Positions 4,792 through 36,092 of a DNA stretch of 64,000 bases are shown here, piece after piece. This DNA is from Amycolatopsis bartoniae (lineage in GTDB: Bacteria; Actinomycetota; Actinomycetes; Mycobacteriales; Pseudonocardiaceae): contig NZ_JACHWH010000005.1 in assembly GCF_014191255.1 (NCBI RefSeq), forward strand, positions 186,001 through 250,000, in the 5' to 3' direction. The number at the start of each line of letters is the position of its first letter. Within the stretch, counting starts at the first letter, position 1. The position numbers and the translations under genes are program-made. A model generated the notes under the pieces. That model searched no databases and was not told where the DNA came from. It saw only the letters and a program-made list of their open reading frames with translations.

Positions 4792-5421
4792 GTGGTGACC
4801 GAGACCCGGAACCGGCAGGACCGCGCGGCCGGTAGCCGGACGCTGATCCTCGACGCGGCCGTGGCGTGCCTCGTCGAGCTGGGCTACGCGGGAGCGTCCA
4901 CTTTGGCCATCCAGGCCAAGGCGGGGGTGTCGCGCGGCCGGCTGCTGCACCACTTCCCGTCGCGGGACGAGCTGCTGCTCGCCGCCACCCAGCACCTGAC
5001 GGCCAGCAGGCTGCTGCAGACCGAGGAGCGCGTCGTGGCGCTGCTCGCCGACGTGCCCGAGGGCCGGGGGCGGGTCGAGCGGTGCATCGACCTGCTGTGG
5101 GCGACGTTCCACGAGCCCCCGTTCTGGGCGGCCGTCGAGCTGTGGACCGCGGCCAGGACCGACCCGGCGCTGGCCGCGGCGCTGCGGCCGCAGGAACGCG
5201 CGCTGCGCAACGCGATCCGCAGGGTCGGCGAGCGGATCTGGGGGCCCGCCGTGTGCGCCCACCCGAACTACCCCGAGCTGGGCGAGCTGCTGTTCACCAG
5301 CATGCGGGGCGCGGCGCTGCCGTACATGTTCGAGCACCGGCGGCGCCCGGGCAGCGACCCGCACCTGGCGCTGTGGAAGTCGCTCGCGCACCGGCTGCTC
5401 TTCGCTGACGGTCAGTGTTGA
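4792..5421 (+). CDS. TetR family transcriptional regulator
   Basis: A 209-residue TetR-type repressor. The N-terminal helix-turn-helix covers about residues 18-62, with TLAIQAKAGVSRGRLLHHFPSRDEL matching the usual recognition-helix region, followed by an all-helical ligand domain. The GTG at 4792 is followed by a second GTG codon at 4795 that could also be the start. It lies between two acyl-CoA ligases transcribed in opposite directions, with one palindrome in front of each, so it probably represses both and responds to an acyl-CoA or acid. The second palindrome overlaps its own 3' end. Confidence 0.9.
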   Translation: MVTETRNRQDRAAGSRTLILDAAVACLVELGYAGASTLAIQAKAGVSRGRLLHHFPSRDELLLAATQHLTASRLLQTEERVVALLADVPEGRGRVERCIDLLWATFHEPPFWAAVELWTAARTDPALAAALRPQERALRNAIRRVGERIWGPAVCAHPNYPELGELLFTSMRGAALPYMFEHRRRPGSDPHLALWKSLAHRLLFADGQC

Positions 5422-5428
5422 CTGTTTC
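5407..5428. promoter_or_regulatory. Second candidate operator of the TetR regulator
   Basis: GTGTTGACTGTT here matches the minus-strand reading of the 4752-4773 palindrome, which contains GTGTTGACTGTTC. The flanks (GGTCA, TGACT) preserve an imperfect dyad. It overlaps the last codons of the tetR gene and lies 55 bases before the next ligase gene. Confidence 0.5.
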
Positions 5429-5482
5429 CCCGGCGGCGAGGTAGAAACGGCGTACCTGCCCACCGGATCGCCGAGGTTGCCG

Positions 5483-7075: not shown

Positions 7076-7148
7076 GGGTGTTTCGCCCGCCGGACTCCCT
7101 GCCCGTTGCTAGCCTCACGTCGTTGCCGCCGACCGTGAGGAGACCTCC

Positions 7149-7709
7149 GTGCCCGACGAGGCCCAGGGAATCGCCGTGTTCGGTTTCGAGCTGGGCATCC
7201 TCAAGCGGTTGCGCCGCGCCGGCTGGTGGCATGCCGGCGTCCGCGATCCGGAGTCGGTGGCGGAGCACTCCCTGCGGGTCGCCCAGCTGGCCGGACTGCT
7301 CGCCGCCCAGGAGGGAGCCGATCCCGCCCGCGCGGCGTACCTGGCGATCTGGCACGACTCGCAGGAGACCCGGACCGGCGATCTGCCCCACACGGTGCGG
7401 CCGTACCTGACGAAGCCCGACGCCCGCCGGATCACCGCCGACCAGACCGCGGTCCTGCCGTCGGCTGCCGGTGAGTCGGTGCGTGCCGCGGTCGCCGAGT
7501 ACGAGGCGGACGACACCCGGGAAGCCCGGTGCGCCCGGGACGCGGACAAGCTCGAAATGCTGTTGCAGGCTGTCGAATACCGGGAGGTGGGCGTGCGGGG
7601 TGTACAGGGCTGGATCGACAGTGCACTGACGAGCCTCACCACCGACACGGCCAGGCGCGTGGCCGAGACCGCGGTTTCCCTGTCGCCACTCGCCTGGCGC
7701 GAGGGCTGA
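7149..7709 (+). CDS. HD-domain phosphohydrolase (YfbR/HDDC2-like)
   Basis: A 186-residue metal-dependent phosphohydrolase. The order of metal ligands is H in AEHSLRVA (near 39), HD in AIWHDSQETRTGDLP (near 69-70) and D in ARDADKLEML (near 137), as in the YfbR/HDDC2 group, whose characterised members are 5'-deoxynucleotidases. The GTG start at 7149 follows GAGGAGACCTCC. It seems independent of the catabolic genes on both sides. The nucleotide substrate is inferred from the family only. Confidence 0.85.
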   Translation: MPDEAQGIAVFGFELGILKRLRRAGWWHAGVRDPESVAEHSLRVAQLAGLLAAQEGADPARAAYLAIWHDSQETRTGDLPHTVRPYLTKPDARRITADQTAVLPSAAGESVRAAVAEYEADDTREARCARDADKLEMLLQAVEYREVGVRGVQGWIDSALTSLTTDTARRVAETAVSLSPLAWREG

Positions 7710-7807
7710 GACCCCGGGCCGCCCGCGGCCCTGGTCTCCTCGAAGAACTCCGCCAGCTGGTCCACCGCCTCGGTGACGTACGGCTCCGGCGCGTTCGCGA
7801 AGGCGCG

Positions 7808-8980
7808 TCACTCCCCCGTCACCGCGTCGTGGCCCAGGACGGGGCTCAGCGCGTCCAGGCTCATGATCTCCCCGCTCGTCATCGCCGCGTCGCGTTCGCG
7901 CTGCCCGGGGCCGTCCGGGAGGTGGAAGCGGACGTTGTTCGCCCAGGACTGGCGTTGGATGAGGGCCGTGTGGGGCAGGCGCTCCGCCTCGTACGCCGCC
8001 AGGCCCGCGGCACGGTCGCCGGTCAGAGAGCGGGCCAGCACGACCGCGTCCTCGATCGCCTGCGCCGCGCCCTGCGCCAGGAACGGCAGCATCGGGTGGC
8101 ACGCGTCACCCACCAGTGTGGTGCTGGGCGTGGACCAGCGGGACAACGGCTCCCGGTCGTAGAGGCCCCACCGGTACACCGGCTCACGCACCGCGTCGAG
8201 CAGCTCGGTCAACCGCGGCGACCAGCCCTCGAACTGCGCCCGCAACTCGGCCACGCTCCCCGGCGCCGTCCACGACTCCGCGGACCAGCCCGCCGCGGGC
8301 ACCACGCACACGAGGTTCACGTACCGCCCACCGCGACCCACGGGATACGCCACCAGGTGCCGGTTCGGGCCGAGCCACGCGCGGACCACCGGCTCACCGC
8401 GGCTCGGCAGCGCGTCCGCGGGCACCAGCGCCCGGTAGGCGCACATCCGCGAGAACCTCGCCGCCGTCTCCGGCACCGTCGCCTTGCGGACCGCCGAGTG
8501 GATGCCGTCCGCGCCGACCACCACGTCCGCCGTCTCCGCGCTGCCGTCGGCGAACCGCACCACCGGCTCGGTCTCCCACGACTCGACGGCCGTCACCGGA
8601 CGGCCGAAGCCCACCACGCCCGGCGGCAGCGCCCCGGCGAGCGCCGCGATCAGGTCCGGCCGGTACAAGGTGTGGTAGGGCGCCCCGAACCGCTTCTCGA
8701 CGTTCTCCGCCAGCGGCCACTCCGTCAGCACCGCGTCGTCGTCCCAGCGCAGGAACCGGGTGGCCACGGGCACCACCGCGACCGGCTCCAGCGCGTCCGC
8801 GAGGCCGAGGTGCCGCAGCACCCTGGTGGCGTTCGGTCCTGTTTGGACACCCGCGCCAATCTCGCCGAACCCGCCGGCCCGCTCCACGACGCGGACCTCG
8901 TGCCCGGCCCGCAGCAGGGCGAGCGCGGTGGTCAGTCCGCCGATCCCGCCTCCGACGACGACGATGCGCACAACCGGCAT
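7808..8980 (-). CDS. FAD-dependent aromatic monooxygenase (salicylate/3-hydroxybenzoate hydroxylase-like)
   Basis: A 390-residue class A flavoprotein hydroxylase. The N-terminal Rossmann motif VVVGGGIGGLTTALAL binds FAD, the middle DVVVGADGIHSAVR is the DG fingerprint for FAD and NADPH, and TLVGDACHPMLPFLAQGAAQAIEDA is the GD motif. There is no membrane segment. It is the last gene of the minus-strand operon that starts at 18601, 57 bases after the enoyl-CoA hydratase, and could have its own promoter in that gap. It would hydroxylate an aromatic or cyclic acid with NAD(P)H and O2. Confidence 0.9.
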   Translation of the reverse strand: MPVVRIVVVGGGIGGLTTALALLRAGHEVRVVERAGGFGEIGAGVQTGPNATRVLRHLGLADALEPVAVVPVATRFLRWDDDAVLTEWPLAENVEKRFGAPYHTLYRPDLIAALAGALPPGVVGFGRPVTAVESWETEPVVRFADGSAETADVVVGADGIHSAVRKATVPETAARFSRMCAYRALVPADALPSRGEPVVRAWLGPNRHLVAYPVGRGGRYVNLVCVVPAAGWSAESWTAPGSVAELRAQFEGWSPRLTELLDAVREPVYRWGLYDREPLSRWSTPSTTLVGDACHPMLPFLAQGAAQAIEDAVVLARSLTGDRAAGLAAYEAERLPHTALIQRQSWANNVRFHLPDGPGQRERDAAMTSGEIMSLDALSPVLGHDAVTGE

Positions 8981-9037
8981 TATGGCCCGGAAACGGCGAA
9001 AAAGAGGATCACGGCCGGACGCGCGGGGGCAGCCCGG

Positions 9038-9760
9038 TCACGACGCCCGCTTCCCGGCGGACGCCGCCTGCGCCCACGCCTCGAACTCCAGCACGTCCTC
9101 GAACGCCCCGTCCACGGCCAGGCTCACCGACCGCTTGAGGTCCATCGCCAGGCCCCGGTCCAGCGCCGCCCAGTGGGTGGCACGGTCCAGGGCCGCCGCG
9201 AACGGGTCCTCGGTCACGCCCAGCACGAGCCCGGCGGCCTCCGCCTCCTCCGCGGTGAGGGTGGCCCCGTCCAGCAGCGCCGCGAGCGCGCGCTGACGGC
9301 CCAGCGCCCGCACGAGGAAGTGCGTGCAGCCGCCGCCGGGGTGCAGGCCGAGCCGGGTGAAGGTGAGGCCGAACTTCGCCCGCGGACCGGCGATGCGCAC
9401 GTCACACGCCATCGCGAGGTTCACCCCCGCCCCGATCGCCGCGCCGTGCACCGCCGCGATCGTCGGGACCGGCAGGCGGCGCACCCGCAGAAAACTGTCG
9501 TAGGTGGCCCGCAGGAGGTCGCGCGTCACGTGCACGGGCCGGTTCTCGCCGAACGTCTTCGACAGGTCCGCACCGGCGCAGAAAGCGCTTCCCGCACCGG
9601 TGACCACGACCGCGCGAGCATCCTCGTCGGCCGCCACGGCGTCGACCGCCGCACGCAGGTCCGCCTGCAGCTCCGGCGTGATCGCGTTGCGGCGCGGGTG
9701 GTCGTCGAGCCGGATCACCCGTACGCCTTCGGCCGGTTCTTCCAGCTGTACCAACGGCAT
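9038..9760 (-). CDS. Enoyl-CoA hydratase/isomerase (crotonase family)
   Basis: A 240-residue crotonase. GAGSAFCAGADLSKTF near residue 55 and AAVHGAAIGAGVNLAMACD near 103 form the oxyanion hole and CoA site; LTFTRLGLHPGGGCTHFL is the third conserved block. The usual first catalytic Glu is not evident at its standard place, where this protein reads HPGGGC, so it may be an isomerase or a lyase of the superfamily rather than a plain hydratase. The ATG at 9760 lies 1 base from the stop of the preceding fused acyl-CoA dehydrogenase. Confidence 0.88.
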   Translation of the reverse strand: MPLVQLEEPAEGVRVIRLDDHPRRNAITPELQADLRAAVDAVAADEDARAVVVTGAGSAFCAGADLSKTFGENRPVHVTRDLLRATYDSFLRVRRLPVPTIAAVHGAAIGAGVNLAMACDVRIAGPRAKFGLTFTRLGLHPGGGCTHFLVRALGRQRALAALLDGATLTAEEAEAAGLVLGVTEDPFAAALDRATHWAALDRGLAMDLKRSVSLAVDGAFEDVLEFEAWAQAASAGKRAS

Positions 9761-18601: not shown

Positions 18602-18685
18602 AGCCGCGACTCCCTTGCCAAAATCAACGTCGACGTAGATGCTGACAAAGGTACACAGGGGTGCATCGAAGTCAAGGGGCCGCAC
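18602..18685. promoter_or_regulatory. Divergent promoter with palindromic operator
   Basis: Reading the minus strand, TTGACT (plus 18670-18675) and TACCTT (18648-18653) form a sigma-70-type promoter with a 16-base spacer for the acyl-CoA dehydrogenase operon. At the expected transcription start lies ATCAACGT-CG-ACGTAGAT (18623-18640), an 8-2-8 dyad with one mismatch. Its left arm matches the dyad at 30787-30804, which points to one shared TetR-type regulator. Confidence 0.6.
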
Positions 18686-21170: not shown

Positions 21171-21241
21171 GGACGCGGCAAGCCGCGGCAGCGTTGTTGG
21201 CCAGCATGGTGTCCGATGATTCGCTCGCAAGCGTCGCTCAT
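21171..21241 (-). repeat. Intergenic repeat element, copy 2
   Basis: This segment matches 1742-1816 over GACGCGGCAAGCCGCGGCAG, GCATGGTG and TCGCAAGC with a few substitutions and short gaps. As in copy 1, its minus-strand start coincides with the stop codon of the upstream gene (here TGA inside ATGA at 21238-21241) and it ends before the next ribosome binding site. A 24-codon ATG frame lies in it, but in a different register from copy 1, so it is unlikely to encode a peptide. Confidence 0.7.
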
Positions 21242-22125
21242 GTCGGAAACCCACCGACGCGCCCGAGCCGTCCGGACAGCGGCACGCCCAGCTTGCCGGT
21301 CACCCACCTCGCGTGCTCGATCGCCGCACCGAGGTCGAGCCCGGTGTCGAAACCCATGCGGTGCAGGGTGTAGACGAGATCCTCGGTGGCGACGTTGCCC
21401 GACGCGCCGGGCGCGAACGGGCAGCCGCCGATCCCGCCGAGGCTCGCGTCCAGGGCCTGGACCCCGCTGCGCACGGCGGCGACGGCGTTCGCGACGCCGG
21501 TGTTGCGCGTGTCGTGCAGGTGCACCCGCATCGGGACCCCGGGCGCGCACTCCCGCAGGAGGCCGAAGCGCGTCTCGATGTCCGACGGCACGGCGACGCC
21601 GATCGTGTCGGCGAGGCTCACCTCGTCGGCGTCGACGTCGGCGACCGCGGCGGCCACCCCGGCGAAGCGGGACTCGGGCACCTCGCCCTCGAACGGGCAG
21701 CCGAACGACGCCCCGATGGTGATCGCGACCCGCACGCCGTCCTCGCGGCCACGCCGGCGGATCTCGCGCACGACCTCCACCGCCTCGCGGGTGGTCGTGC
21801 CCTGGTTCCGCTCGCTGAACGTGTCGCTGGCGAGGACCAGCGTGGTGACCTCGCGGATGCCCGCCTCGACGGCACGCTGGTACCCACGCACGTTGAGGAC
21901 GAGGGCACTGTAACCGATTCCGTTGTCCGGCAGGGCTTTCGCCACCTCGGCCGCGTCCGCCAGCTGCGGCACACGGTCCGGGCGCACGAACGAGGTGACC
22001 TCGACGCGCCGCACCCCGGTGCGCGCCGCGCGTTCGACGAGCTCCAGCTTGTCCTCAGTGGACAGTGTGCGGTCCTCGTTCTGCAGCCCGTCACGCGGGG
22101 ACACCTCGACGATCTCGACCATCAT
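21238..22125 (-). CDS. Hydroxymethylglutaryl-CoA lyase family aldolase
   Basis: A 295-residue TIM-barrel lyase. VSPRDGLQNE near residue 8 supplies the Arg/Asp/Gln set, MRVHLHDTRNTG near 200 the HxH metal site, and GGIGGCPFAPGASGN near 230 the catalytic Cys loop. It would split HMG-CoA or a related 3-hydroxy-3-methylacyl-CoA into acetyl-CoA and a keto acid, a step expected when branched or isoprenoid carbon is degraded. I chose ATG 22125 because it forms an ATGA overlap with the preceding SDR stop; ATG 22122 is also possible. Confidence 0.92.
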   Translation of the reverse strand: MMVEIVEVSPRDGLQNEDRTLSTEDKLELVERAARTGVRRVEVTSFVRPDRVPQLADAAEVAKALPDNGIGYSALVLNVRGYQRAVEAGIREVTTLVLASDTFSERNQGTTTREAVEVVREIRRRGREDGVRVAITIGASFGCPFEGEVPESRFAGVAAAVADVDADEVSLADTIGVAVPSDIETRFGLLRECAPGVPMRVHLHDTRNTGVANAVAAVRSGVQALDASLGGIGGCPFAPGASGNVATEDLVYTLHRMGFDTGLDLGAAIEHARWVTGKLGVPLSGRLGRVGGFPT

Positions 22126-22908
22126 TCCTCCCGTGCCGCCGCGGCGACCAGCCCCGAGCCACCGTCGATTTCGATCGAAGCCCCGCTCACGGCGTCGGCG
22201 ATCCCGCTGCCGAGTGCCGCGACCCATTCCGCCACCTCGGCGGTCGTCGTGTCCCGGCCCAGTGGCGTCCTGGCCACGACGCGGGCCAGCGCTTCCGCCG
22301 GCATCTCCCCCGCGACGCCCTCGGTCAGGACGGTGCCCGGGGCCAGGCAGAACAGCCGGATCCCCTCGGCGCGCCACTGCCGCGCGAGCGTCCTGGTCAG
22401 CGCGGCGATCCCGGCGCGGGCCGCGGCCGAGTGCCAGACCGGGAATACCGCGTTCCGGCGCCGACAACGACAGGCTCACCACGCGGCCGCCGCGTTCGGC
22501 GAGACCCGCGTGAGCCGCCTGGATCAGCGACGCCGTCGCGGTGAGGTTCAGATCGGCGACGGCGGCGAACCCGCGTGGCGAGATCTTGTCCATGGGGGCG
22601 ATGAACTGCCCGCCCGCGTTGTTCACCAGCAGGTCCAGGCCACCGATCCCGGCCACGAACGCGTTGGCCGCCGCCCGGTCGCGGATGTCCAGCGCCTGGA
22701 ACCGGAACCGGTCGCCGCCCAGCTCGGCGGTCCCCGCGAGCGGCTCCTCCCGCCGCCCGGCACCGACGACGTGCGCGCCCAGTTCCAGCAGCCGCAGGCT
22801 CACCGCCCGGCCGATCCCGGTGCCCGCCCCGGTGACCAGAGCCGTGCGTCCACGCAGACACCCCGAGGGCAGCACGGCACAGGACTCCGGTCGTGGTGCG
22901 GGAGTCAC
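22122..22908 (-). pseudogene. Short-chain dehydrogenase with an internal frameshift
   Basis: The N-terminal half (from GTG 22908, in a GTGA overlap with the previous SDR) has the cofactor motif TGAGTGIGRA and DLLVNNAGGQF. At VVSLSLSAPERGIPG, near 22440, family similarity leaves this frame. It continues in another one as WHSAAARAGIAALTR, then LFCLAPGTV and ASIEIDGGSG to the stop at 22122. A two-base loss or one-base gain explains this. The product would be truncated before the active site is complete unless the shift is a sequencing error. The intact neighbours on both sides make a recent mutation or error likely. Confidence 0.75.
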
Positions 22909-23630
22909 GACAACCCCGGCACTCGCGCCAGCAGGCCGCCGTCCACCGGCAGCAGCACGCCGGTCACGTACGACGCGTTGAGCAACCACCACACCGCCTC
23001 GGCCACCTCCTCCGGTTCCGCCGCGCGGCCCGCCGGATGGGCCGCCTCGAAGTCGTCCAGGTCCCGCACCAGTCCCGTGCGCACCAGTCCCGGCGCGACG
23101 GCGTTCACGCGGATTCCCCGCGAGGCGTACTCCACCGCCGCGGTCCTGGTCAGTCCCGCGATCGCGTGCTTGCTCGCGGCGTACGCGCTCGACCCCGGCA
23201 CCCCGGCCACCGCCGCGCCGGACGCGGCGTTCACGATCGCCCCGCCGCCCGCCAGCATGAGCCGCAGCTCCGCCCGCAGGCACGACAGCACGCCTCCGAC
23301 GTTGACGTACTGCACGCGCCAGAAAACGTCCTCGGGATAGTCGGCGGTTTCGGCCCGGATCCCCGTCACGCCCGCGTTGTTGTAGGCGAACGCCAGCCCG
23401 CCGGCCCATTCGGCGGCGGTCTCGACGGCCTCCGCGGCCCGATCGGCCTTGGCCACGTCCACCTCGATCGCCAGCGCCCGGCCACCCGTGCCGGTGATCT
23501 CCGCGGCGACCGCGGAGGCCGCCGCGCCGTCGCGGTCCAGCACCGCCACCGGCACGCCTTCCGCGGCGATCCGGCGCACCACCGCCGCCCCGATCCCGCG
23601 GCCGCCGCCGGTCACCAGCGCGCCCGTCAC
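22905..23630 (-). CDS. Short-chain dehydrogenase/reductase
   Basis: A 241-residue classical SDR. VTGGGRGIGAAVV near residue 6 is the cofactor motif, YNNAGVTG near 82 the NNAG, and the catalytic Ser (NAASGA), Tyr and Lys (YAASKHA) follow near 140-157. ASYVTGVLLPVDGG is the usual C-terminal motif. It would oxidise or reduce a hydroxyl or keto group on a pathway intermediate. It follows the TetR gene after 16 bases and overlaps the frameshifted SDR, so it belongs to the ribBA-led minus-strand run. Confidence 0.92.
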   Translation of the reverse strand: MTGALVTGGGRGIGAAVVRRIAAEGVPVAVLDRDGAAASAVAAEITGTGGRALAIEVDVAKADRAAEAVETAAEWAGGLAFAYNNAGVTGIRAETADYPEDVFWRVQYVNVGGVLSCLRAELRLMLAGGGAIVNAASGAAVAGVPGSSAYAASKHAIAGLTRTAAVEYASRGIRVNAVAPGLVRTGLVRDLDDFEAAHPAGRAAEPEEVAEAVWWLLNASYVTGVLLPVDGGLLARVPGLS

Positions 23631-23646: not shown

Positions 23647-24315
23647 TCAGTCCGTCAACGCCGAAAGCGCCATCTTGATGAAGTCCTCCCCGAAGTCGGT
23701 GAGGCTCCGCTCGCCCGCCGGGTTGTACCAGCGGTGGATCCAGTTGAACATGCCGATGATGCCCAGCACCGCCACCGACGGGTCGATGTCCGTGCGGAAC
23801 TCCCCCGCCTTCGCGCCCGAGCGGATCACGTCGGCAAGCGCGCGGCCGTAGCGGTCGGCGTTGTCGCGGATGTCGTCGGCCTCCGGGCCCGACATCACCT
23901 GGTGCACGTTCTCGCTCAGGAAGATGAACAGCTCCGGCAGCTCCTCCATCGTGCGCACGTACTCGCGCAGCGCCGCCGCCAGCCGCTCGGTGGCCGAGTC
24001 CGGCTGCGCCGCGACCTCCTCCAGCCGCGTCCGCATCGTCTCGATCGGATCGTGCAGCAGCGCGACGAGCAGCTCCTCCTTGGTGCCCACGTAGTAGTAC
24101 AGCGTCGCCCTGCTGATCCCGACCTCGGCGGCGACGTCCTCGAGCGTCGACTGGGCGTAGCCGAGCCTGCCGAACACCCGGGCCGCCCCGGTCAGGATCT
24201 CCGCCCACCGGGCGTCCGACCGCTGCCGGCCGGCCTGCCTGCGTTCCATGCGCCGCCGGGCGATGTCGCTCTCCGGCGCTGGTGCCGCGGTGCGGCGTCG
24301 GCGTGGCGCGGCCAC
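23647..24315 (-). CDS. TetR family transcriptional regulator
   Basis: A 222-residue TetR-type regulator. The helix-turn-helix is near residues 40-85 (STLEDVAAEVGISRATLYYYVGTKEELLVALL), with a basic N-terminal arm (RRRRTAA, MERRQAGRQR) that may add DNA contacts. The start is GTG 24315; an internal ATG at MERRQ is an alternative. It lies inside a catabolic run between an acyl-CoA ligase and an SDR, so it is the best candidate to bind the related dyads at 18623-18640 and 30787-30804. That link is inference. Confidence 0.9.
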   Translation of the reverse strand: MAAPRRRRTAAPAPESDIARRRMERRQAGRQRSDARWAEILTGAARVFGRLGYAQSTLEDVAAEVGISRATLYYYVGTKEELLVALLHDPIETMRTRLEEVAAQPDSATERLAAALREYVRTMEELPELFIFLSENVHQVMSGPEADDIRDNADRYGRALADVIRSGAKAGEFRTDIDPSVAVLGIIGMFNWIHRWYNPAGERSLTDFGEDFIKMALSALTD

Positions 24316-24380: not shown

Positions 24381-25925
24381 CTATCCCGCCCGCAGTTCAC
24401 GCTTGAGCACCTTCCCGCTGGCGTTGCGCGGGAACTCGGTGTCCACCGAGAACACCGCGGGCACCTTGTACCCGGCGAGGCGGGCCTTGCAGTACGCGCG
24501 CACCTCGTCCTCGGCCAGCGTGGCGCCGTCTTCGAGGATCACGTGCGCCCGCACGATCTCGCCCCAGTGCTCGTCCGGCACGCCGACCACGGCGACCTCG
24601 CGGACCCCGGGATAGGTGCCGAGCACGTCCTCGATCTCCGCGGGGTAGATGTTCTCGCCCCCGCGGATGATCATGTCCTTCTTGCGGCCGTTGAGGTAGA
24701 GGTAGCCCGCCTCGTCCCGCCAGGCCAGGTCGCCGCCGCGGAACCAGCCGTCCACCAGCACCTTCGCGGTCTCCTCCGGTTGCCCGAGGTAGCCCGACAT
24801 CACCGCGTCCGCGCGGGTCACGATCTCGCCGACCTCGCCGTCGGGCACGTCACTGAGCCCCGTGTCGTCGTCGGGGTCGCACAGCCGCAGCGACACGCCC
24901 ATGCCCGCCTTGCCGATCGAGCCGAGCAGGTGCTCCTGCCCGGCCAGCGCGAGGCGGTGGTCCTCCGGCGTGAGCACGGTCTGCAACCCGGCCTCCGTGC
25001 CCGCGCCGAACATGTTCATGAAGTCGCACGAGAACCGGCTCATCGCCCGCCGCAGCAGCGCCGGGGACATCGGCGCGGCGCCGTACCCGATGGACCTGAG
25101 GTTCGAGAAGTCCCCCTGGGCCACGGCCGGCTCGTGCAGCAGCGTGTCGATCATCGTCGGCACCAGGAACACACCGTCGAGCCCGCCGCGCGCCATCCAG
25201 TGCGCGACCGTCGGGGCGTCGAACGCGGGCAGCACCAGCGAGGTGTGCCCGCGTGCCACGCCGGACAGCGTGTAGAGCATGCCGCCGACGTGGAACAGCG
25301 GGGCCGCCGAGTAGTGGAACGACAGGTTGGTCATCCGCCGTTCCACGATGCACTGCATGACCATGTGCTTGGCCATCCGCTGCGAGTGCAGGACGCCCTT
25401 CGGCAGCGCCGTGGTGCCGCTGGTGAACGCGAGGCACACGATGTCCGAGTCGGCCACCGGGACGTCGATCTCCTCGTCCGGGGAGGCGGCGACGAGCCCC
25501 TCGTAGGACTCGTCGCCGGACTCGGAGTCGTAGCTGATCACCGTCTTGAGCCCCGGTACGTCGACCCCGCGCACGAGGCCGGTGTAGCGGTCGCTGTAGA
25601 ACAGCACCTTCGCCTCGGCGGTGCGCAGCAGCGCCTGCAGCTCGGGACGGGCCAGCCGGAAGTTCAGCGGCACGTACAGCGCGCCGAGCTTCATGCAGGC
25701 GAGCAGGGTCTCCACGTACTGCGCGGAGTCGGTGGCGAACAGCGCCACCCGGTCGCCCTGGGAGACCCCCATGCGCCGCAACGCCGAGGCGATGCGGTTG
25801 ACCCGGCTGTTGACCTCACGGAACGTGAAGCTCGCCGTGTCGGTGACGAAGCACGCCCGGTTCGGGACCGTGCTCGCGTTGATGCGGATCCAGTCCGCGA
25901 CGCGCGAGTTCTGCTGGACGGACAT
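24381..25925 (-). CDS. Acyl-CoA synthetase (FadD-type AMP-forming ligase)
   Basis: A 514-residue ANL ligase. FTSGTTALPKGVLHS near residue 168 is the P-loop, MNMFGAGTEAG the A5 motif, GDLAWRDEAGYLYLNGRKKD the hinge region and RNASGKVLKREL the catalytic Lys motif. The ATG at 25925 has GAAGGAG 5 bases before it, better than the GTG two codons upstream. It follows a luciferase-like monooxygenase after 27 bases and probably activates the acid made by the oxygenase steps. Confidence 0.93.
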   Translation of the reverse strand: MSVQQNSRVADWIRINASTVPNRACFVTDTASFTFREVNSRVNRIASALRRMGVSQGDRVALFATDSAQYVETLLACMKLGALYVPLNFRLARPELQALLRTAEAKVLFYSDRYTGLVRGVDVPGLKTVISYDSESGDESYEGLVAASPDEEIDVPVADSDIVCLAFTSGTTALPKGVLHSQRMAKHMVMQCIVERRMTNLSFHYSAAPLFHVGGMLYTLSGVARGHTSLVLPAFDAPTVAHWMARGGLDGVFLVPTMIDTLLHEPAVAQGDFSNLRSIGYGAAPMSPALLRRAMSRFSCDFMNMFGAGTEAGLQTVLTPEDHRLALAGQEHLLGSIGKAGMGVSLRLCDPDDDTGLSDVPDGEVGEIVTRADAVMSGYLGQPEETAKVLVDGWFRGGDLAWRDEAGYLYLNGRKKDMIIRGGENIYPAEIEDVLGTYPGVREVAVVGVPDEHWGEIVRAHVILEDGATLAEDEVRAYCKARLAGYKVPAVFSVDTEFPRNASGKVLKRELRAG

Positions 25926-25952: not shown

Positions 25953-27038
25953 TCACGACAGCTTCGGCAGCACCTCGGTGCCGATCAGTTCGATCGAACG
26001 CATGACCTTTTCGTGCGGGATGTCGTAGGACTGGACGAGCAGCATCAGCACGTCCACGCCCACCGCCTCGTAGCGGCGGCACATCTGCAGGAAGTGCTCG
26101 GGGTCCCCGCACAGCACGGTCTCGTTCCGCACCAGGTAGTCGAACGTCAGGTCTTCCAGCGACATGCCGCCGAGCAGCTTCCGCGCGTACTCGTAGCTGC
26201 CGAGGTTGGTGCCCTCCTGCCAGGCGCCCAGCTCGGCGATCGTCTTCAGTGACGACTGGATGTACCACGGGAAGGCGGTTTTGGCGTCCTCGTGCGCCTG
26301 CGCGGTGGTCTCGGCGCAGTGCGCCTGGGCGAAGGTCGCGATCCGGTTGTTGACGAACTTCCCGACCGGCCGCACCTGTTCGAGGCCCTCGCGGTAACGG
26401 CCGATGCGCTTGGTCAGCCCCTCCGGCGGGATCGCCACCGAGAACGACAGCAGCCCGAGCCCCTTGCGGCCCACGATCTCGTGACTGTCCGCACTGGACG
26501 TGGCGCCCCAGATCGGCGGGTGCGGCTGCTGGTACGGCTTCGGCACCACGCCACGGGGTGGCAGCTTGAAGTACTTGCCGTGCCAGCTGAACTCCTCCTC
26601 CGTCCAGCTGCCGACGATGACGTCGAGCGCCTCCTCCCACATCGGCCGCGTCTCGGGCGGGCTGATGCCGAAGCCCTCGATCTCGATGCGCGTGCCCGAG
26701 CGGCCGGTGCCGAACTCCAGGCGTCCCTTGGACAGCACGTCCACGGTGGCCGCGGCCTCGGCGGCGCGCACCGGGTGGTTGTACGGGAACGGCAGCAGCC
26801 GGACGCCGTGCCCGATCCGGATGTTCTGCGTGCGGGCGGCGATCGACCCGTAGAACACGCCGGGCGCGGACGAGAACGAGTACTCGTCGAGGAAGTGGTG
26901 CTCCACCGTCCACACGCTGTGGAACCCGAGCCGGTCGGCCAGCTCGATCTCCTGCAGGGTGTTCTCGAAGGCGTGGTAGGCGCTGTCGGGGCCCCACGGC
27001 CGCGGTACCGGCAGCTCGTAGATCAGGGCGAGCTTCAC
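25953..27038 (-). CDS. Luciferase-like flavin-dependent monooxygenase
   Basis: A 361-residue luciferase-family protein. HSVWTVEHHFLDEYSFSSAPG near residue 32 is the WxxEHHF motif of FMNH2-type members, RIGHGVRLLPFPYNHPVRAAEA and RLEFGTGRSGT follow. It starts at GTG 27038 in a GTGA overlap with the lactonase gene and GAGGGAGGACTC upstream. Such proteins insert oxygen using reduced flavin delivered by a separate reductase, which is encoded at 29032-29517. The length and the EHHF motif match the second copy at 27916-29010. Confidence 0.9.
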   Translation of the reverse strand: MKLALIYELPVPRPWGPDSAYHAFENTLQEIELADRLGFHSVWTVEHHFLDEYSFSSAPGVFYGSIAARTQNIRIGHGVRLLPFPYNHPVRAAEAAATVDVLSKGRLEFGTGRSGTRIEIEGFGISPPETRPMWEEALDVIVGSWTEEEFSWHGKYFKLPPRGVVPKPYQQPHPPIWGATSSADSHEIVGRKGLGLLSFSVAIPPEGLTKRIGRYREGLEQVRPVGKFVNNRIATFAQAHCAETTAQAHEDAKTAFPWYIQSSLKTIAELGAWQEGTNLGSYEYARKLLGGMSLEDLTFDYLVRNETVLCGDPEHFLQMCRRYEAVGVDVLMLLVQSYDIPHEKVMRSIELIGTEVLPKLS

Positions 27039-27919
27039 GAGTCCTCCCTCGTGGTGACCGAGCCCGTGTGCGATGCCGCGGGCGTCAGTCCCAGGTCGAA
27101 GGCCACCAGCTGCCCGGCGAGCCCATAGGTCACGTACAGGCGGCCGTCGTCGCCCGCACAACAGTTGGTCGGCTGGGTGCCGTCCCCCGTTTCGATCGTC
27201 TCCGCCAGTTCACCGCCGGAGTAGACGAAGATCGCGTTCCCGATGCTGCCGCACACGTACAGGCGGCCCTCGCCGTCGAAGCAGAGCCCGTCGGGCATGC
27301 CCGAGGGCAGCTTGCAGATCTGCTCCGGCTCGCCGAAGGTGCCGCCGGAGACCTCGAAGGCGAGCACCTTGCGGGTCAGCGACTGGGTCAGGTACAGCCG
27401 CCCGTCGGGTCCGAACGCGACACCGTTGGGCATCGCGGGCACCTCGGCCGAGCCCAGCACGCCGCCGTCGGCGCCGATCGCGACGACGTGGCCGGGGCTG
27501 ATGCCACGCAGGTTCTCCCAGTCGGCGCTGTCGGTGACGTACAGCGTCCCGTCCGGGCCGAAGCACAGGTCGTTCGGCCGGTGCGGCGCCGGGCCGGGGA
27601 ACGCGGGCGGCACCGTGGTGACCGTCCCGCCGGGATCGACGCGCTGCACGCAACCCTCCAGCTGCCGCGGCGCGTGCCAGTAGCCGGTGCCTTCGGCGGA
27701 CAGGCCGCCGTTGTTCGCGACGTACAGCTCGCCGTCCGCGCCGAGCGCGCTGCCGTTCGGGCCGCCACCGCAGTCCCCGAGCGGGGTCACCGTGCCGTCG
27801 GGCGCGACGCGGCTGATCGCCTCGCCCTTCATCTCCACCACCGCGACCGCGCCGTCACCGAGCCACGTGGGCCCTTCGGGGAAGCGCAGCCCTCCGGCGA
27901 CGACTCTCGGGGCCGTCAC
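27035..27919 (-). CDS. SMP-30/gluconolactonase family hydrolase
   Basis: A 294-residue six-bladed beta-propeller lactonase. FPEGPTWLGDGAVAVVEM near residue 12 provides the Glu ligand, NGSALGADGELYVANNGG and HRPNDLCFGPDGTLYVTDS the Asn and Asp metal ligands, and MPDGLCFDGEGRLYVCG the last blade motif. There is no signal peptide. It sits between two luciferase-like monooxygenases and overlaps both genes by 4 bases. A lactonase beside Baeyer-Villiger-capable oxygenases suggests that a cyclic ketone is turned to a lactone and opened. Confidence 0.9.
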   Translation of the reverse strand: MTAPRVVAGGLRFPEGPTWLGDGAVAVVEMKGEAISRVAPDGTVTPLGDCGGGPNGSALGADGELYVANNGGLSAEGTGYWHAPRQLEGCVQRVDPGGTVTTVPPAFPGPAPHRPNDLCFGPDGTLYVTDSADWENLRGISPGHVVAIGADGGVLGSAEVPAMPNGVAFGPDGRLYLTQSLTRKVLAFEVSGGTFGEPEQICKLPSGMPDGLCFDGEGRLYVCGSIGNAIFVYSGGELAETIETGDGTQPTNCCAGDDGRLYVTYGLAGQLVAFDLGLTPAASHTGSVTTREDS

Positions 27920-29010
27920 GAGGCCGCCGCCTCTTCGAACTCGTAGCGGGGCAGCTCCTTGACCCGCGGCATCACCTCCGCCGCGAACAGGCGCATGTTG
28001 GCCTCCGCGGTCTCGTAGCTCATGCCGGAGAACGAGCACACCGCGTTGAACCCGTCGTTGCCCACCTTGGAGCGGATGTCGAGGATGCGCTCGTAGCACT
28101 GGTCGGGCGTGCCGTAGATCTGCAGCTCGATGAAGTTGTCGACGACCTTGCCCGACCCCTTGTGCTGGATGTAGGAGGCCAGCGAGCGGTAGTACTCGTA
28201 GCCCTGCGTGCTGGCGAAGTGCCGGCCGCCGAGCTCGTAGTGCGACATCACCGACTCGTAGTAGCCGCCGATGTACTCCTGCGCCATGTCCTTCGCCTTG
28301 ACCGGGTCGTTGTCGCAGCACACCCAGCCGGTGACCATCGGCGCCGGCGCCTCCACGCCCTTCAGCTCGCGGAACTGCTCGCGGTACTGGGCCATGTCGT
28401 CGGAGACCTCGTCCCAGTCCTTCTGGGGGTTGATCAGGATCCCGGCGCCGACGTCGGCCATGATCCGCACCGACTCGGGCGACACCGCCGCGGCGTAGAG
28501 CCGGTCGCGGAAGGACTTCACCGGCCGGGGCCGCAGGTCGCGCTTCGGGATCTGGTAGTACTTCCCGTCCGCCTCGACCACGCCGGTCTCCAGCGCGCGC
28601 AGCACGATCTCGGCCGACTCGACGAACCGGGCACGCGACTCGCCCATCGGGACGCGCAGGCCCTCGAACTCGATCCGGCCGAGCCCGCGGCCCATGCCGA
28701 AGACGAACCGCCCGCCGGACATCAGGTCCAGCATCGTCACCTGTTCGGCGACCCGCACCGGGTCGTGCCACGGCAGGATCACCGCGCCCGAGCCGAGCAG
28801 GATGTTCCTGGTGCGCCCCGCCATGTAGGACAGGAACTGGATCGGGTCCGGGCACATCGTGTAGGAGGTGAAGTGGTGCTCGACGCCCCACAGCATCTCG
28901 AAGCCCAGCGGTTCGGCCAGGTCGCACAGGCGCAGCTCGTCGGAGTAGACACGCTGGTCGTCCTTCGCGTCGCCGCCGCCCTGGAAAATGCTCGTGTATC
29001 CGACTCGCAT
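27916..29010 (-). CDS. Luciferase-like flavin-dependent monooxygenase
   Basis: A 364-residue paralog of the product of 25953-27038. EMLWGVEHHFTSYTMCPDP near residue 38 holds the EHHF motif; ILLGSGAVILPWHDPVRVAEQ and RFVFGMGRGLGRIEFEG follow. The ATG at 29010 follows AGAAAGAAGG. It lies 21 bases after the flavin reductase, so it should receive reduced flavin. Two EHHF-type copies in one operon could be subunits of one oxygenase or act at two steps. Confidence 0.9.
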   Translation of the reverse strand: MRVGYTSIFQGGGDAKDDQRVYSDELRLCDLAEPLGFEMLWGVEHHFTSYTMCPDPIQFLSYMAGRTRNILLGSGAVILPWHDPVRVAEQVTMLDLMSGGRFVFGMGRGLGRIEFEGLRVPMGESRARFVESAEIVLRALETGVVEADGKYYQIPKRDLRPRPVKSFRDRLYAAAVSPESVRIMADVGAGILINPQKDWDEVSDDMAQYREQFRELKGVEAPAPMVTGWVCCDNDPVKAKDMAQEYIGGYYESVMSHYELGGRHFASTQGYEYYRSLASYIQHKGSGKVVDNFIELQIYGTPDQCYERILDIRSKVGNDGFNAVCSFSGMSYETAEANMRLFAAEVMPRVKELPRYEFEEAAAS

Positions 29011-29031
29011 CGGGAATGACCTTCTTTCTGG

Positions 29032-29517
29032 TTACGAGAGCCGCTGGTAGGTGCCGTGGCAGAAGATGAGGGGACGGCCCGCGGGCCGCACGGAGAGCTC
29101 GTGGACGTCGGCGAGGACGAAGACGTGGTCGCCGGCGTCGGTGACCGAGTGCGTGGTGCAGTCGAACCAGGCGAGCGCGCCGTCGAGCACGGGCGAGCCC
29201 AGCGGCGACGGCTCCCACCGCACGCCGCCGAACTTGTTCCCGCCGGAGACCGCGAACGCCCGCGAGACGTCCTCGCCCTCCTCTCCGAGGACGTTGACGC
29301 AGAACCGGCCGAGCGGCTCGATCCGCGGCCACGTGCTGGAGGTGCGGGCCACGAAGAACCCGACCAGCGGCGGTTCCAGCGACACCGACACGAACGAGCC
29401 GACCGCGAGCCCGAGCGGGCCCTCCGGCGAGGCGGCCGAGACGACGGCCACGCCGGTGGGCACGTGCCGCATGACGTGCCGGAACCGGTCCGGCGTGACT
29501 CCTGCCGCCGTGGTCAT
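29032..29517 (-). CDS. Flavin reductase-like protein
   Basis: A 161-residue protein of the flavin reductase (HpaC-like) FMN-binding split-barrel family. FRHVMRHVPTGVAVVSA near residue 12, AVGSFVSVSLEPPLVGFFV near 38 and FCVNVLGEEGEDVSRAFA near 70 are the standard blocks. It would reduce FMN or FAD with NAD(P)H for the two luciferase-like monooxygenases that follow. The ATG at 29517 overlaps the ribBA stop as ATGA, so precursor supply, flavin reduction and oxygenation are encoded in succession. Confidence 0.92.
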   Translation of the reverse strand: MTTAAGVTPDRFRHVMRHVPTGVAVVSAASPEGPLGLAVGSFVSVSLEPPLVGFFVARTSSTWPRIEPLGRFCVNVLGEEGEDVSRAFAVSGGNKFGGVRWEPSPLGSPVLDGALAWFDCTTHSVTDAGDHVFVLADVHELSVRPAGRPLIFCHGTYQRLS

Positions 29518-30725
29518 CGCGCCTCCCGCAGGTCGGGGTCCAGTGCCAGGTCGTGCCCGAGCCGGGCCTGTTTCGTCCGCAGGTACCGCACGTTCTCCGG
29601 CGCCGGGACCGTCCGAAGTGGACACGCCGTCACCTTCAGCCCTTCCGCGGCCAGTGCGTGCACCTTGTCCGGGTTGTTGGTCAGCAGCGTGACCTCGCTC
29701 AGCCCGAGCCGCAGCAGCACGCGCGCGGCGGCGCGGAAGTCCCGTGCGTCGGCCGGATGCCCGAGCCGCAGGTTCGCGTCGACGGTGTCGGCGCCGCGGT
29801 CCTGCAGCGCGTAGGCGCGGAACTTGTCGGCGAGGCCGATGCCGCGGCCCTCGTGCCCGCGCTCGTAGACCAGGACTCCGCGCCGCGCCTGGGAAATCGT
29901 TTCGAGGCCGGCCCGCAGCTGCTCGCCGCAGTCGCAGCGCAGCGAGCCGAACAGGTCACCGGTCGCGCATTCCGAGTGCACCCGCACGAGGACGGGTTCC
30001 CCGGCCGAGAGGTCCCCGAGCGCGAGCACCAGGTGCTCGGCACCGTCGGGCTCGGTGCGCACCAGCGTCGCGGTGAACTCGCCGTGCGGCGTGGGCAGCG
30101 GGATGCTCGGCGTCTCCTCGGTCGCGCGCCCGCGGACTTCGATGAGGTCCTGGATCCCGATCAGCGGCAGGTCGTAGCGCCGCGCGAACTCCCGCACGTC
30201 CTCGCCGCGCACCATCTCCCCGTCGGGCCGGGACAGCTCGCAGATCACCATCACCGGGTCGATCCCGGCGAGCTCGCCCAGGTCGACCGCGGCCTCGGTG
30301 TGCCCGGCCCGGCCGAGCACGCCCTCGGGGTGCGCCCGCAGCGGGAACATGTGGCCGGGACGGGCGAAGTCCTCGGGGCGGGCGGCCGGATCGGCCAGCT
30401 TCCGCGCGGTGACCGCCCGGTCCGCCGCGCTCACGCCGGTGGTGGTGTGCTCGACCGCGTCCACCGTGACCGTGAAGGCCGTGCGGTGCCGTTCGGTGTT
30501 GTCGGCGACCATCAGCGGCAGGCCGAGCGCGTCGGCGCGGGCGGCGGGCATCGGCACGCACACGATGCCGGTGCAGTGCCGCAGCAGGAAGGCCATCTTC
30601 CCGGGTGTCATGTGCGCGGCGGCGAGGACGAGGTCGGCCTCGTTCTCGCGGTCCGCCGCGTCCGTCACGACGACGAACTCGCCGCGGACCACCGCTTCCA
30701 GCGCGTCGTGCACGGTGTCAGCCAT
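29514..30725 (-). CDS. ribBA: Bifunctional DHBP synthase / GTP cyclohydrolase II
   Basis: A 403-residue fusion. Residues 1-205 are RibB, which makes 3,4-dihydroxy-2-butanone 4-phosphate (DRENEADLVLAA, GHTEAAVDL). Residues 206-403 are RibA, which opens GTP (HSECATGDLFGSLRCDCGEQL with three zinc-binding Cys, and GHEGRGIGLADKFRAYALQ). Key residues are present, so both steps should work. The ATG at 30725 follows AAGGAGCGGGGCG. As the first gene of a monooxygenase operon it is probably an accessory copy that raises flavin supply; I see no FMN riboswitch before it. Confidence 0.95.
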   Translation of the reverse strand: MADTVHDALEAVVRGEFVVVTDAADRENEADLVLAAAHMTPGKMAFLLRHCTGIVCVPMPAARADALGLPLMVADNTERHRTAFTVTVDAVEHTTTGVSAADRAVTARKLADPAARPEDFARPGHMFPLRAHPEGVLGRAGHTEAAVDLGELAGIDPVMVICELSRPDGEMVRGEDVREFARRYDLPLIGIQDLIEVRGRATEETPSIPLPTPHGEFTATLVRTEPDGAEHLVLALGDLSAGEPVLVRVHSECATGDLFGSLRCDCGEQLRAGLETISQARRGVLVYERGHEGRGIGLADKFRAYALQDRGADTVDANLRLGHPADARDFRAAARVLLRLGLSEVTLLTNNPDKVHALAAEGLKVTACPLRTVPAPENVRYLRTKQARLGHDLALDPDLREAR

Positions 30726-30762
30726 CGCCCCGCTCCTTGCGTCATCGCTTGTGTTGACAGGA

Positions 30763-30804
30763 ACGGTAGCCCTTCCGCATTCCTGCGTCAACGTTTACGC
30801 TGAC
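30763..30804. promoter_or_regulatory. Promoter and operator of the ribBA operon
   Basis: On the minus strand TTGACG (plus 30786-30791) and TACCGT (30763-30768) have a 17-base spacer and fit a sigma-70 promoter for ribBA. GTCAACGT-TT-ACGCTGAC at 30787-30804 is an 8-2-8 dyad with one mismatch that covers the -35 box, so a bound regulator would block entry. It resembles the dyad at 18623-18640. The divergent E1 alpha gene starts at 30843 and may respond to the same protein. Confidence 0.6.
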
Positions 30805-34765: not shown

Positions 34766-34863
34766 TCCGCAGAGGGTACCGGGTGTGACCGGTCGTGCTC
34801 ACCACGCGACCTGCGGGAAACGAAATCGACAAAAGTGTTGACGGAGTCTTGTTCCGGGTCCGG

Positions 34864-34875
34864 ATTGCATGCAAT
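34864..34875. promoter_or_regulatory. GntR box 2
   Basis: ATTGCATGCAAT is a perfect 12-base palindrome 35 bases before the CoA-transferase start. A possible -35 box TTGACG lies at 34838-34843, so the palindrome would fall on the -10 region and a bound repressor would block transcription of the transporter operon. Confidence 0.8.
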
Positions 34876-34910
34876 ATGTGTCCACAGTCGAATTCGGAGG
34901 TGGCGCAACG

Positions 34911-36092
34911 GTGGGTCCACTGCACGGAACCAGGGTTCTCGAACTCGGCAGCTTCATCGCCGGTCCGTTCGCCGGGCAGCTGCTCGCCGACTACGGGGCC
35001 GAGGTCGTGAAGATCGAACCACCGGCCACGGGTGACCCGATGCGCCGCTGGGGCATCACCAAGGACGGGGAATCCCTGTGGTGGCCCGCGATCGCGCGCA
35101 ACAAGAAGTCCGTGACCGTCGACCTGCGGGGCGAACGGGGCCAGGAGCTCGTCCGCGAGCTCGCCGCCACCGCCGACGTCGTGCTGGAGAACTTCCGCCC
35201 CGGCACCCTGCGGAAATGGGGCCTGGACTACGAAACCCTCAGCGCGCTCAACCCGGGCATCGTCGTCGTGCACGTCTCCGGCTTCGGCCAGACCGGGCCG
35301 AACTCCGGGCTCGCCGGGTTCGGCAGCGTCGCCGAGGCCGTCGGCGGAATCCGCCACACCACGGGATCCCCGGACGACGCCCCGGCCAGGACGGGCATCA
35401 GCCTCGGTGACTCGCTCGCCGCGCTCTTCGCCGTCATCGGCACGCAGGCCGCCCTGCTCGAACGGGCCCGCAGCGGCCGCGGCCAGGAGGTCGACGTCGC
35501 CATCTACGAGGCCGTGTTCGCGCTGATGGAGTCCACGCTGGCCGACTACCATGCCGGTGGCGTGCTGCGGAAACGCAGTGGCAGCGTGCTTCCCGGGGTC
35601 GCACCGTCCAATGTGTACCCGACTGCGGACGGCGCGGAGGTCGTCATCGCCGCCAACGCCGACACCGTCTTCGCCCGCCTCGCCGAGGCGATGGGGCAGC
35701 CGGAGCTGGCGACCGACGAGCGCTACGCGACGCACCAGGCACGCGGCGCGCGGATGGCGGAGCTCGACGCGCTCGTCTCCGCCTGGACCTCCGCCCGCAA
35801 GAGCGACGAGCTGATCGACGAGCTGAACCGGCACGGCGTGCCGGTCGGCCGGATCAACACGGCGGCCTCGATCCTCACCGACCCCCACTTCGCCGCCCGC
35901 GAGATGATCCAGTGGCGGCGCAACCAGCACGGCACGGAGCTGCCCATGAACGGCGTCGTTCCCAAGTTCTCCCGCACCCCGGGGGAGATCACCCGCACCG
36001 GGCCCGCGCTCGGCGCCGACACCGACGAGGTGCTCGCCGCGGTCGCCGACGGCGAACGGCTCGGCCGGCTCAGAGCGGACGGTGTCGTGTGA
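34911..36092 (+). CDS. Class III CoA-transferase (CaiB/BaiF family)
   Basis: A 393-residue family III CoA-transferase. GTRVLELGSFIAGPFAGQLLADYGAEVVKIE at the N-terminus, NKKSVTVDLRGERGQ near 63 and the GISLGDSLAA segment near 165, holding the catalytic Asp, are canonical. I chose GTG 34911 with CGGAGGTGG in front; an upstream ATG at 34869 lies inside the GntR box and is unlikely. It moves CoA between acids without ATP. Its stop overlaps livG, so CoA activation is coupled to import of the substrate. Confidence 0.92.
   Translation: MGPLHGTRVLELGSFIAGPFAGQLLADYGAEVVKIEPPATGDPMRRWGITKDGESLWWPAIARNKKSVTVDLRGERGQELVRELAATADVVLENFRPGTLRKWGLDYETLSALNPGIVVVHVSGFGQTGPNSGLAGFGSVAEAVGGIRHTTGSPDDAPARTGISLGDSLAALFAVIGTQAALLERARSGRGQEVDVAIYEAVFALMESTLADYHAGGVLRKRSGSVLPGVAPSNVYPTADGAEVVIAANADTVFARLAEAMGQPELATDERYATHQARGARMAELDALVSAWTSARKSDELIDELNRHGVPVGRINTAASILTDPHFAAREMIQWRRNQHGTELPMNGVVPKFSRTPGEITRTGPALGADTDEVLAAVADGERLGRLRADGVV

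Follow-up and report, generated by a model that had tools for sequence, protein, structure and literature searches.

The window analyzed here is a 64,000-nucleotide stretch of Amycolatopsis bartoniae DNA (contig NZ_JACHWH010000005.1, positions 186,001 to 250,000; GC content 72.4%), and it contains an operon in which ribBA, a gene for an enzyme of riboflavin-precursor synthesis, precedes genes for a flavin reductase and two luciferase-like oxygenases. All of the genes lie on the minus strand. The first, ribBA (29514–30725), encodes a 403-residue paralog that joins a 3,4-dihydroxy-2-butanone 4-phosphate (DHBP) synthase domain (PF00926, 265.7 bits) to a GTP cyclohydrolase II domain (PF00925, 198.8 bits). 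It is followed by a 161-residue flavin reductase of the HsaB/HpaC type (29032–29517; PF01613, 140.7 bits), a 364-residue LuxA-like flavin oxygenase with an EHHF motif, referred to as LLM1 (27916–29010; PF00296, 218.9 bits), a 294-residue SMP-30/gluconolactonase-like β-propeller hydrolase (27035–27919; PF08450, 107.2 bits against a cut-off of 26.3), and a second LuxA-like flavin oxygenase of 361 residues, LLM2, which is recognized by its domain (186.4 bits) and its EHHF motif (25953–27038). An acyl-CoA ligase adjoins them (24381–25925; PF00501/PF13193, AMP-binding 243.5 bits), and all of these Pfam scores lie above their cut-offs. Downstream, a gene for a TetR-family regulator, a candidate repressor of the operon, occupies positions 23647–24315.

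The genes through the ligase are placed as the first-pass annotation had described them, and its statement that they are linked by ATGA or GTGA overlaps or short gaps is borne out, as they form one tightly packed operon: ribBA and the reductase gene share an ATGA overlap, a 21 bp gap separates the reductase gene from that of LLM1, the SMP-30 gene has a GTGA overlap on each side, and 27 bp lie between the LLM2 and ligase genes. With a flavin reductase and a separate luciferase-like (LLM) oxygenase encoded within one operon, the locus has the make-up of a two-component reduced-flavin monooxygenase system. Amycolatopsis acididurans and G066, a genome from another genus of the same family, keep the whole gene order from RibBA through the reductase, LLM1, the SMP-30 protein, LLM2 and the ligase to the TetR regulator, with 79–92% protein identity, and the TetR gene is also kept in Nonomuraea.

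RibBA copies in the genome

According to the first-pass annotation, an operon ribBA that was the sole copy in the genome would be the housekeeping gene and its link to the oxygenases accidental. The genome instead holds four open reading frames that match PF00926, on contigs C5 (the operon copy), C10, C11 and C15, and the C10 copy stands in a separate housekeeping operon that contains an rpe-like open reading frame, ribE, ribBA and ribH. We therefore ruled out that the operon gene is the housekeeping ribBA, to whose product its own is 52.7% identical. A stand-alone GTP cyclohydrolase II is encoded on C6, and the single match to PF00885 (ribH) genome-wide lies in the C10 operon. Because ribH is present once and elsewhere, the operon can add precursors but cannot complete the riboflavin pathway. 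The description of the operon as carrying its own flavin synthesis was thus overstated: two entry activities are indeed encoded in it, but the whole pathway is not.

The operon protein has the features of a bifunctional RibBA, scoring above cut-off for PF00926, PF00925, TIGR00506 and TIGR00505, and it scores 524.9 against the full-length equivalog PRK09311, under the cut-off of 569. Alignment, which was also made to the solved RibBA 4i14, reveals that it keeps R37, E38, E40, D42, H153 and E174 in the DHBP synthase domain and C54, C65, C67, Y105, D126 and R128 in the GTP cyclohydrolase II domain, residues that we take to be catalytic and that carry what we take to be the E. coli numbering. Thus, the operon RibBA retains the main catalytic residues of both domains and is predicted to be active.

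Two further copies differ in their surroundings. The C15 locus (L096) is a second RibBA–oxygenase locus of the same genome, with an HsaA-like gene at 4900–6495, a reductase gene at 6300–7049, ribBA at 6926–8050 and an FAH-like gene at 8157–9122 (locus coordinates), and its gene content resembles that of the ipp cluster of Rhodococcus sp. D-6. In the C11 copy (L004/L089), the PF00926 match begins at position 52, none of the three reading frames of that strand shows the N-terminal DHBP synthase motif REN, and no flavin reductase lies within 7 kb.

Recurrent linkage of RibBA to flavin reductases

Of the nine PF01613 matches in the 7.76 Mb genome, two lie directly next to RibBA genes other than the housekeeping one, on C5 and on C15. 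Across the family, RibBA was found at 132 places in 99 of 100 genomes among the matches listed, a set from which stand-alone RibA was left out and in which weak or decayed RibBA copies are under-counted. We read 55 of these places, namely all those from the 22 genomes with more than one place, leaving out 77 single-copy places. Up to 7 kb was read on each side, with some stretches ending at contig ends (e.g. L065, L071, L081 and L090); neighbors were called with profiles grown from proteins of the window and of its own genome, with a threshold of E ≤ 1e-5 for the reductase, and gaps were measured between profile matches and not between gene ends.

None of the 22 loci that also contain RibE or RibH, and that are therefore counted as housekeeping, has a flavin reductase within 7 kb, while 26 of the 33 non-housekeeping loci do. 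In 11 of these 26, the reductase is on the same strand and within 400 bp of RibBA; when the C15 locus, whose reductase was already known, is included, the counts become 27 of 34 and 12. The chance expectation, calculated from nine reductase genes in 7.76 Mb, is approximately 1.7% per locus. Several of the genomes are near-copies of one another, so the 26 linked loci are not independent events; clustering at 70% identity divides the paralogs that fall outside the housekeeping group into 17 groups, 14 of which have a reductase-linked member. In a phylogenetic tree, 29 paralogs fall in one supported group (98/97), and 25 of these are reductase-linked. Viewed from the oxygenase, homologues of LLM1 (E ≤ 1e-60) have a RibBA-type gene within 6 kb at eight of 17 places among the matches listed in the 100 genomes, the window's own genome and G066 included.

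The pairing is also found on plasmids. RibBA relatives occur on 290 plasmid records at E ≤ 1e-40, from which 22 loci were chosen for diversity, not at random, and read with flanks of 7 or 8 kb. Profiles for RibE and RibH identify four of these as rib operons, and a fifth locus, from Lactiplantibacillus, has an annotated RibH fragment. Among the other 17, a flavin reductase is called by profile in 12 (in Rhodococcus, Streptomyces, Mycobacterium branderi, Pseudonocardia, Variovorax, Rhizobium and Agrobacterium), and the number rises to 15 when annotated FMN reductases and LLM proteins are counted as well; neither a reductase nor an LLM protein lies within these flanks in Rhodococcus opacus G13 (unannotated) or R. 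pyridinivorans P23. On a Methylocystis iwaonis plasmid (L196), ribBA lies between an acyl-CoA dehydrogenase-like gene and an annotated msuE, with ssuD and sfnG adjoining, a similar pairing in an organosulfur setting. On the mobilizable 64 kb Lactiplantibacillus plantarum plasmid pGR1187-1 (L195), RibBA and the short annotated RibH fragment lie among insertion sequence elements.

The control region upstream of ribBA

The region preceding ribBA contains a block composed of TTGACG, a 17 bp spacer and TAnCGT, together with two GTCA...TGAC sites, and the same arrangement precedes ribBA in G066 and A. acididurans. The first operator-like palindrome (30787–30804, minus strand) overlaps the -35-like TTGACG and is conserved in three relatives, and the second (30741–30758, minus strand) lies directly downstream of the -10-like TACCGT, which agrees with TATAAT at three of six positions. 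In a Nonomuraea operon that lacks ribBA, the same TTGACG–TAnCGT block, with its two GTCA...TGAC sites, precedes the reductase gene. Thus, ribBA either sits inside one control region or has been lost from it. The conserved operator-like pair and its placement in Nonomuraea thus indicate that ribBA is, as judged from sequence, an accessory gene under the oxygenase promoter.

The sites before ribBA and in Nonomuraea supplied a pattern with which further operator-like sites were sought; its match to the first palindrome with zero mismatches is by construction, and its match with one mismatch is the informative one. In the 7.76 Mb genome, this single match falls approximately 27 bp upstream of the start of an acyl-CoA dehydrogenase gene in the neighboring operon, where a third operator-like site is located (18616–18647, minus strand; ATG at 18601); at up to three mismatches there are 77 genome matches versus 21 for the reversed pattern. 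We also used a position weight matrix trained on eight sites, including the window's two. The acyl-CoA dehydrogenase site, which is not a training site, scores 22.0 here and 26.9 in G066. The control, a single shuffled window, reaches 12.5 at best, and an unrelated position of the actual window reaches 14.4. A weaker site (34824–34845, plus strand) precedes a CaiB-like gene (34869–36092, named by eye) and scores 18.4 here, 21.6 at the corresponding position of A. acididurans and only 10.2 near that position in G066. For a regulator that would act at these sites, the TetR protein is the natural candidate. Riboswitch control was considered and set aside, as there is no Rfam match at the gathering score in the window, in the housekeeping locus L062, or in L042 or L103.

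Proposed function of the operon RibBA

The first-pass annotation had held that a flavin-precursor enzyme is tied here to flavin-using oxygenases, and the spare RibBA, the conserved operator-like pair and the recurrent reductase linkage sustain that view; on this evidence, the ribBA–oxygenase link does not appear to be accidental. We consider it probable (roughly 0.65) that the locus is a regulated catabolic operon in which the RibBA paralog raises flavin supply for two-component reduced-flavin oxygenases. In the mechanism that we infer, from the activity of RibBA and the rise in flavin to the TetR regulator, the substrate and the order of the reactions, the specialized RibBA encoded by the first gene would raise the supply of the two riboflavin precursors, which RibH from the single-copy housekeeping gene and the other late enzymes would convert to flavin, so that the free-flavin pool would rise when the oxygenases are induced. 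The flavin reductase would make reduced flavin, probably FMNH2, and the oxygenase cofactor is presumably flavin mononucleotide (FMN) rather than F420. With this reduced flavin and O2, the two LuxA-like oxygenases would act on a substrate destined for CoA-dependent β-oxidation.

Such an arrangement suggests that a pathway dependent on free-flavin oxygenases can be equipped with a cofactor tap of its own, and the loci described above suggest that the RibBA–oxygenase pairing is a recurrent one in actinobacteria and proteobacteria, on chromosomes and on plasmids. Such genes are labelled as riboflavin genes by annotation pipelines; using the non-housekeeping copies as markers would help to find reduced-flavin oxygenase clusters, and adding a matched RibBA might raise the activity of such oxygenases in biotechnology.

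Several observations weigh against this interpretation. A strict sigma-70 scan found no promoter. Relative to the housekeeping copies, the operon protein is changed at three sites, which in E. coli RibB are positions 41 (G to A), 89 and 92. Seven of the 33 paralogs have no nearby reductase, and in the tree the housekeeping side includes five paralog rows. Nonomuraea harbinensis, in whose genome (completeness not stated) there is one PF00926 match, has the order reductase, LLM1, SMP-30 protein, LLM2, ligase and TetR regulator without ribBA. In a survey of the best 80 of at least 587 LLM1 homologues (named-contig loci L103–L182, with flanks of up to 8 kb that are often cut by contig ends), RibBA is near the homologue in one locus and a reductase in two. 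Since most LLM1 homologues have no RibBA nearby and the Nonomuraea operon has none, RibBA appears dispensable for the chemistry. Finally, although most reductase-linked RibBA copies keep their catalytic residues, four (L090, L093, L095 and L096) are altered at catalytic positions of both domains, the DHBP synthase change in L093 being E40 to G, and two more (L091 and L092) are altered at those of GTP cyclohydrolase II. These changes were read from one alignment, with L096 additionally read separately, and flavin supply leaves the persistence of such copies unexplained.

An LLM match, in one case a weak one, stands within 7 kb of six of the seven paralogs that lack a reductase. By itself, however, the presence of an LLM gene says little, because the genome holds 70 LLM matches and two of the 22 housekeeping rib loci also have one. 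Two of the seven, L064 and L071, cluster in the housekeeping group at 70% identity. L094 has lost GTP cyclohydrolase II positions as in L091, and it has no reductase within reach, only an SMP-30 protein and an LLM protein.

The operon as a whole is sporadic, as its SMP-30 protein (E ≤ 1e-80) occurs in two of 298 genomes of the order, its own and that of one congener; G066 came from a different genome sample. With RibBA nearby in just one of the 80 surveyed loci, a role as a fixed companion of LLM1 is ruled out. The LLM1-like proteins of L104–L182, which are 51–73% identical to LLM1, come from Rokubacteria, SAR202 and other Chloroflexi, Reyranella and others, and apart from L107, which has a reductase, the flanks read at these loci contain neither reductase nor RibBA. 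Thirty of the 80 loci have an ACS-like gene near the homologue.

Oxygenase chemistry and pathway

The genes of the operon and its surroundings are consistent with a growth substrate that undergoes oxygenation, CoA activation and β-oxidation, and the oxygenation could be a Baeyer-Villiger step on a cyclic ketone. The full pathway proposed in the first-pass annotation, in which the LLM proteins oxidize the ketone, the SMP-30 protein opens the lactone and the ligase attaches CoA, is a tentative possibility that we regard as less probable than not. The gene order of oxygenase, lactonase, oxygenase and ligase speaks for it, as does the SMP-30 protein, which is closest to solved lactonases (PDB entry 7ris, "Beta-propeller lactonase", E 5.8e-26), and LuxA-type enzymes use a peroxyflavin that is suited to such chemistry. 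SMP-30 proteins can, however, act on esters other than lactones, and a relative is near the LLM1 homologue in just two of the 80 surveyed loci. The LLM1 structure model (predicted local distance difference test score 85.6) is nearest among solved folds to bacterial luciferases and then to RslO1, with the 3,6-diketocamphane monooxygenase (4uwm) ranking 44th, and in a profile search 4uwm is a distant match (E 4.7e-14) as compared to LuxA (5.5e-53). LLM2 is nearest by sequence to RslO1 (7bip) and matches no diketocamphane enzyme at E ≤ 1e-5. Neither protein thus has as its nearest solved relative a diketocamphane-type enzyme, which would be expected of an LLM-type (type II) Baeyer-Villiger monooxygenase.

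LLM1 resembles bacterial luciferase in domain, fold and EHHF motif, and LLM2 in domain and motif; both fall below the 600-bit NCBIfam cut-off for luciferase alpha (134.6 and 65.2 bits, respectively). Whether they form an alpha/beta luciferase pair was also considered. As they are 26.8% identical and both keep the EHHF motif, two oxygenases look likelier. The reductase is of the HsaB/HpaC kind and scores under the cut-offs of the named equivalogs.

Related systems and alternative roles

Pairing of a rib-type gene with a flavin oxygenase is already known, and the pattern here looks wider than the single cases described; in searches of an open-access library we found no general account of RibBA paralogs as flavin reductase companions. 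In Photobacterium lux-rib, riboflavin genes are co-transcribed with a LuxA-type oxygenase and luxG (PMC6409340). Riboflavin-type genes thus stand alongside a LuxA-type oxygenase in both systems, but in Photobacterium ribE-B-H-A follow luxG, whereas here a lone fused RibBA is placed first. In addition, the neighbors here are catabolic, and no lux aldehyde genes are found among the proteins scanned. The single ribB of V. campbellii belongs with Photobacterium lux-rib among the close known systems. For the ipp cluster of Rhodococcus sp. D-6, it is reported that a RibB-type gene and the oxygenase gene are both up-regulated on 2-isopropylphenol (log2 4.46), and that the RibB-type protein, of 214 residues, is encoded between the oxygenase and reductase genes (PMC12442392). 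Both ipp and the operon place a gene of RibB type next to a two-component flavin monooxygenase within a catabolic cluster (PMC12442392); the ipp oxygenase is HsaA-like and not luciferase-like, and in gene content the C15 locus is closer to ipp than the operon is. In the modular riboflavin pathways of Sinorhizobium meliloti, a RibBA is argued to serve one flavin demand (secretion) and not internal needs, a likeness in that RibBA has a separate duty, but no oxygenase link is described in the available text (PMC9478397).

The ipp protein also bears on the suggestion that the RibBA paralog has a role other than precursor synthesis, such as binding and handing over flavin or stabilizing the reductase/oxygenase pair, with catalysis being secondary. 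We consider this unlikely: the position of the RibB-type gene in ipp (PMC12442392) and the persistence of the six altered reductase-linked copies favor it, but the operon copy and most linked copies keep their catalytic residues, and the decay may be neutral loss or in part alignment or assembly error. Partly decayed RibBA fusions are known, as the Aeromonas salmonicida fusion is reported to have kept RibB and lost RibA function (PMC10012899). A broader conjecture, to which we give an equally low probability, is that reductase-adjoining RibBA paralogs are parts of the oxygenase systems in their own right and that they began as on-site flavin suppliers, some of these paralogs having since become pseudoenzymes that bind, hand over or regulate flavin for the reductase/oxygenase pair; if so, copies without catalytic residues would keep their place in operons. 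In any event, the decayed copies pose a testable pseudoenzyme question.

Oxidant defence or detoxification of a mel2- or lux-like kind, in place of carbon catabolism, is still less probable. The mel2 locus of Mycobacterium marinum contains the LuxA-like MelF, flavin-reductase-like, DHBP synthase and GTP cyclohydrolase II domains, and the LuxH-like protein MelJ, and a protective role against reactive oxygen and nitrogen species is reported for it (PMC1793995). The operon likewise combines a LuxA-like protein, a flavin reductase domain and RibBA-type domains in one locus. However, the LuxG-like MelG and the epoxide hydrolase MelH are present in mel2 and neither is among the eight proteins scanned here, whereas the operon has an SMP-30 lactonase, a second LLM protein and a CoA ligase. 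The operon moreover lies in a colinear 32 kb island with a ligase, acyl-CoA dehydrogenases, hydratases and a thiolase, and the best other operator match precedes the island's β-oxidation genes.

That ribBA is redundant or hitch-hiking, its position being accidental, is highly improbable, as the recurrent reductase linkage, the ATGA overlap and the conserved operator-like pair stand against the absence of ribBA from the Nonomuraea operon and of RibBA from beside most LLM1 homologues.

The surrounding catabolic island

The island around the operon (9057–41239) is colinear with G066 at 72–82% DNA identity. Its genes encode a thiolase, acyl-CoA dehydrogenases, enoyl-CoA hydratases, a 3-hydroxy-3-methylglutaryl-CoA (HMG-CoA)-lyase-like protein and a second AMP-binding protein, as well as a pair that resembles 2-oxo acid dehydrogenase E1 and scores under the equivalog cut-offs. 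Some proteins were named by eye from their translations, namely as CaiB, Liv transporter, GntR, CoA transferase and 3-hydroxyacyl-CoA dehydrogenase. On the minus strand at 22100–22900, a gene similar to short-chain dehydrogenases/reductases appears to switch frame midway; the open reading frame at 21238–23409 has a partial adh_short match and continues into the HMG-CoA-lyase-like gene.

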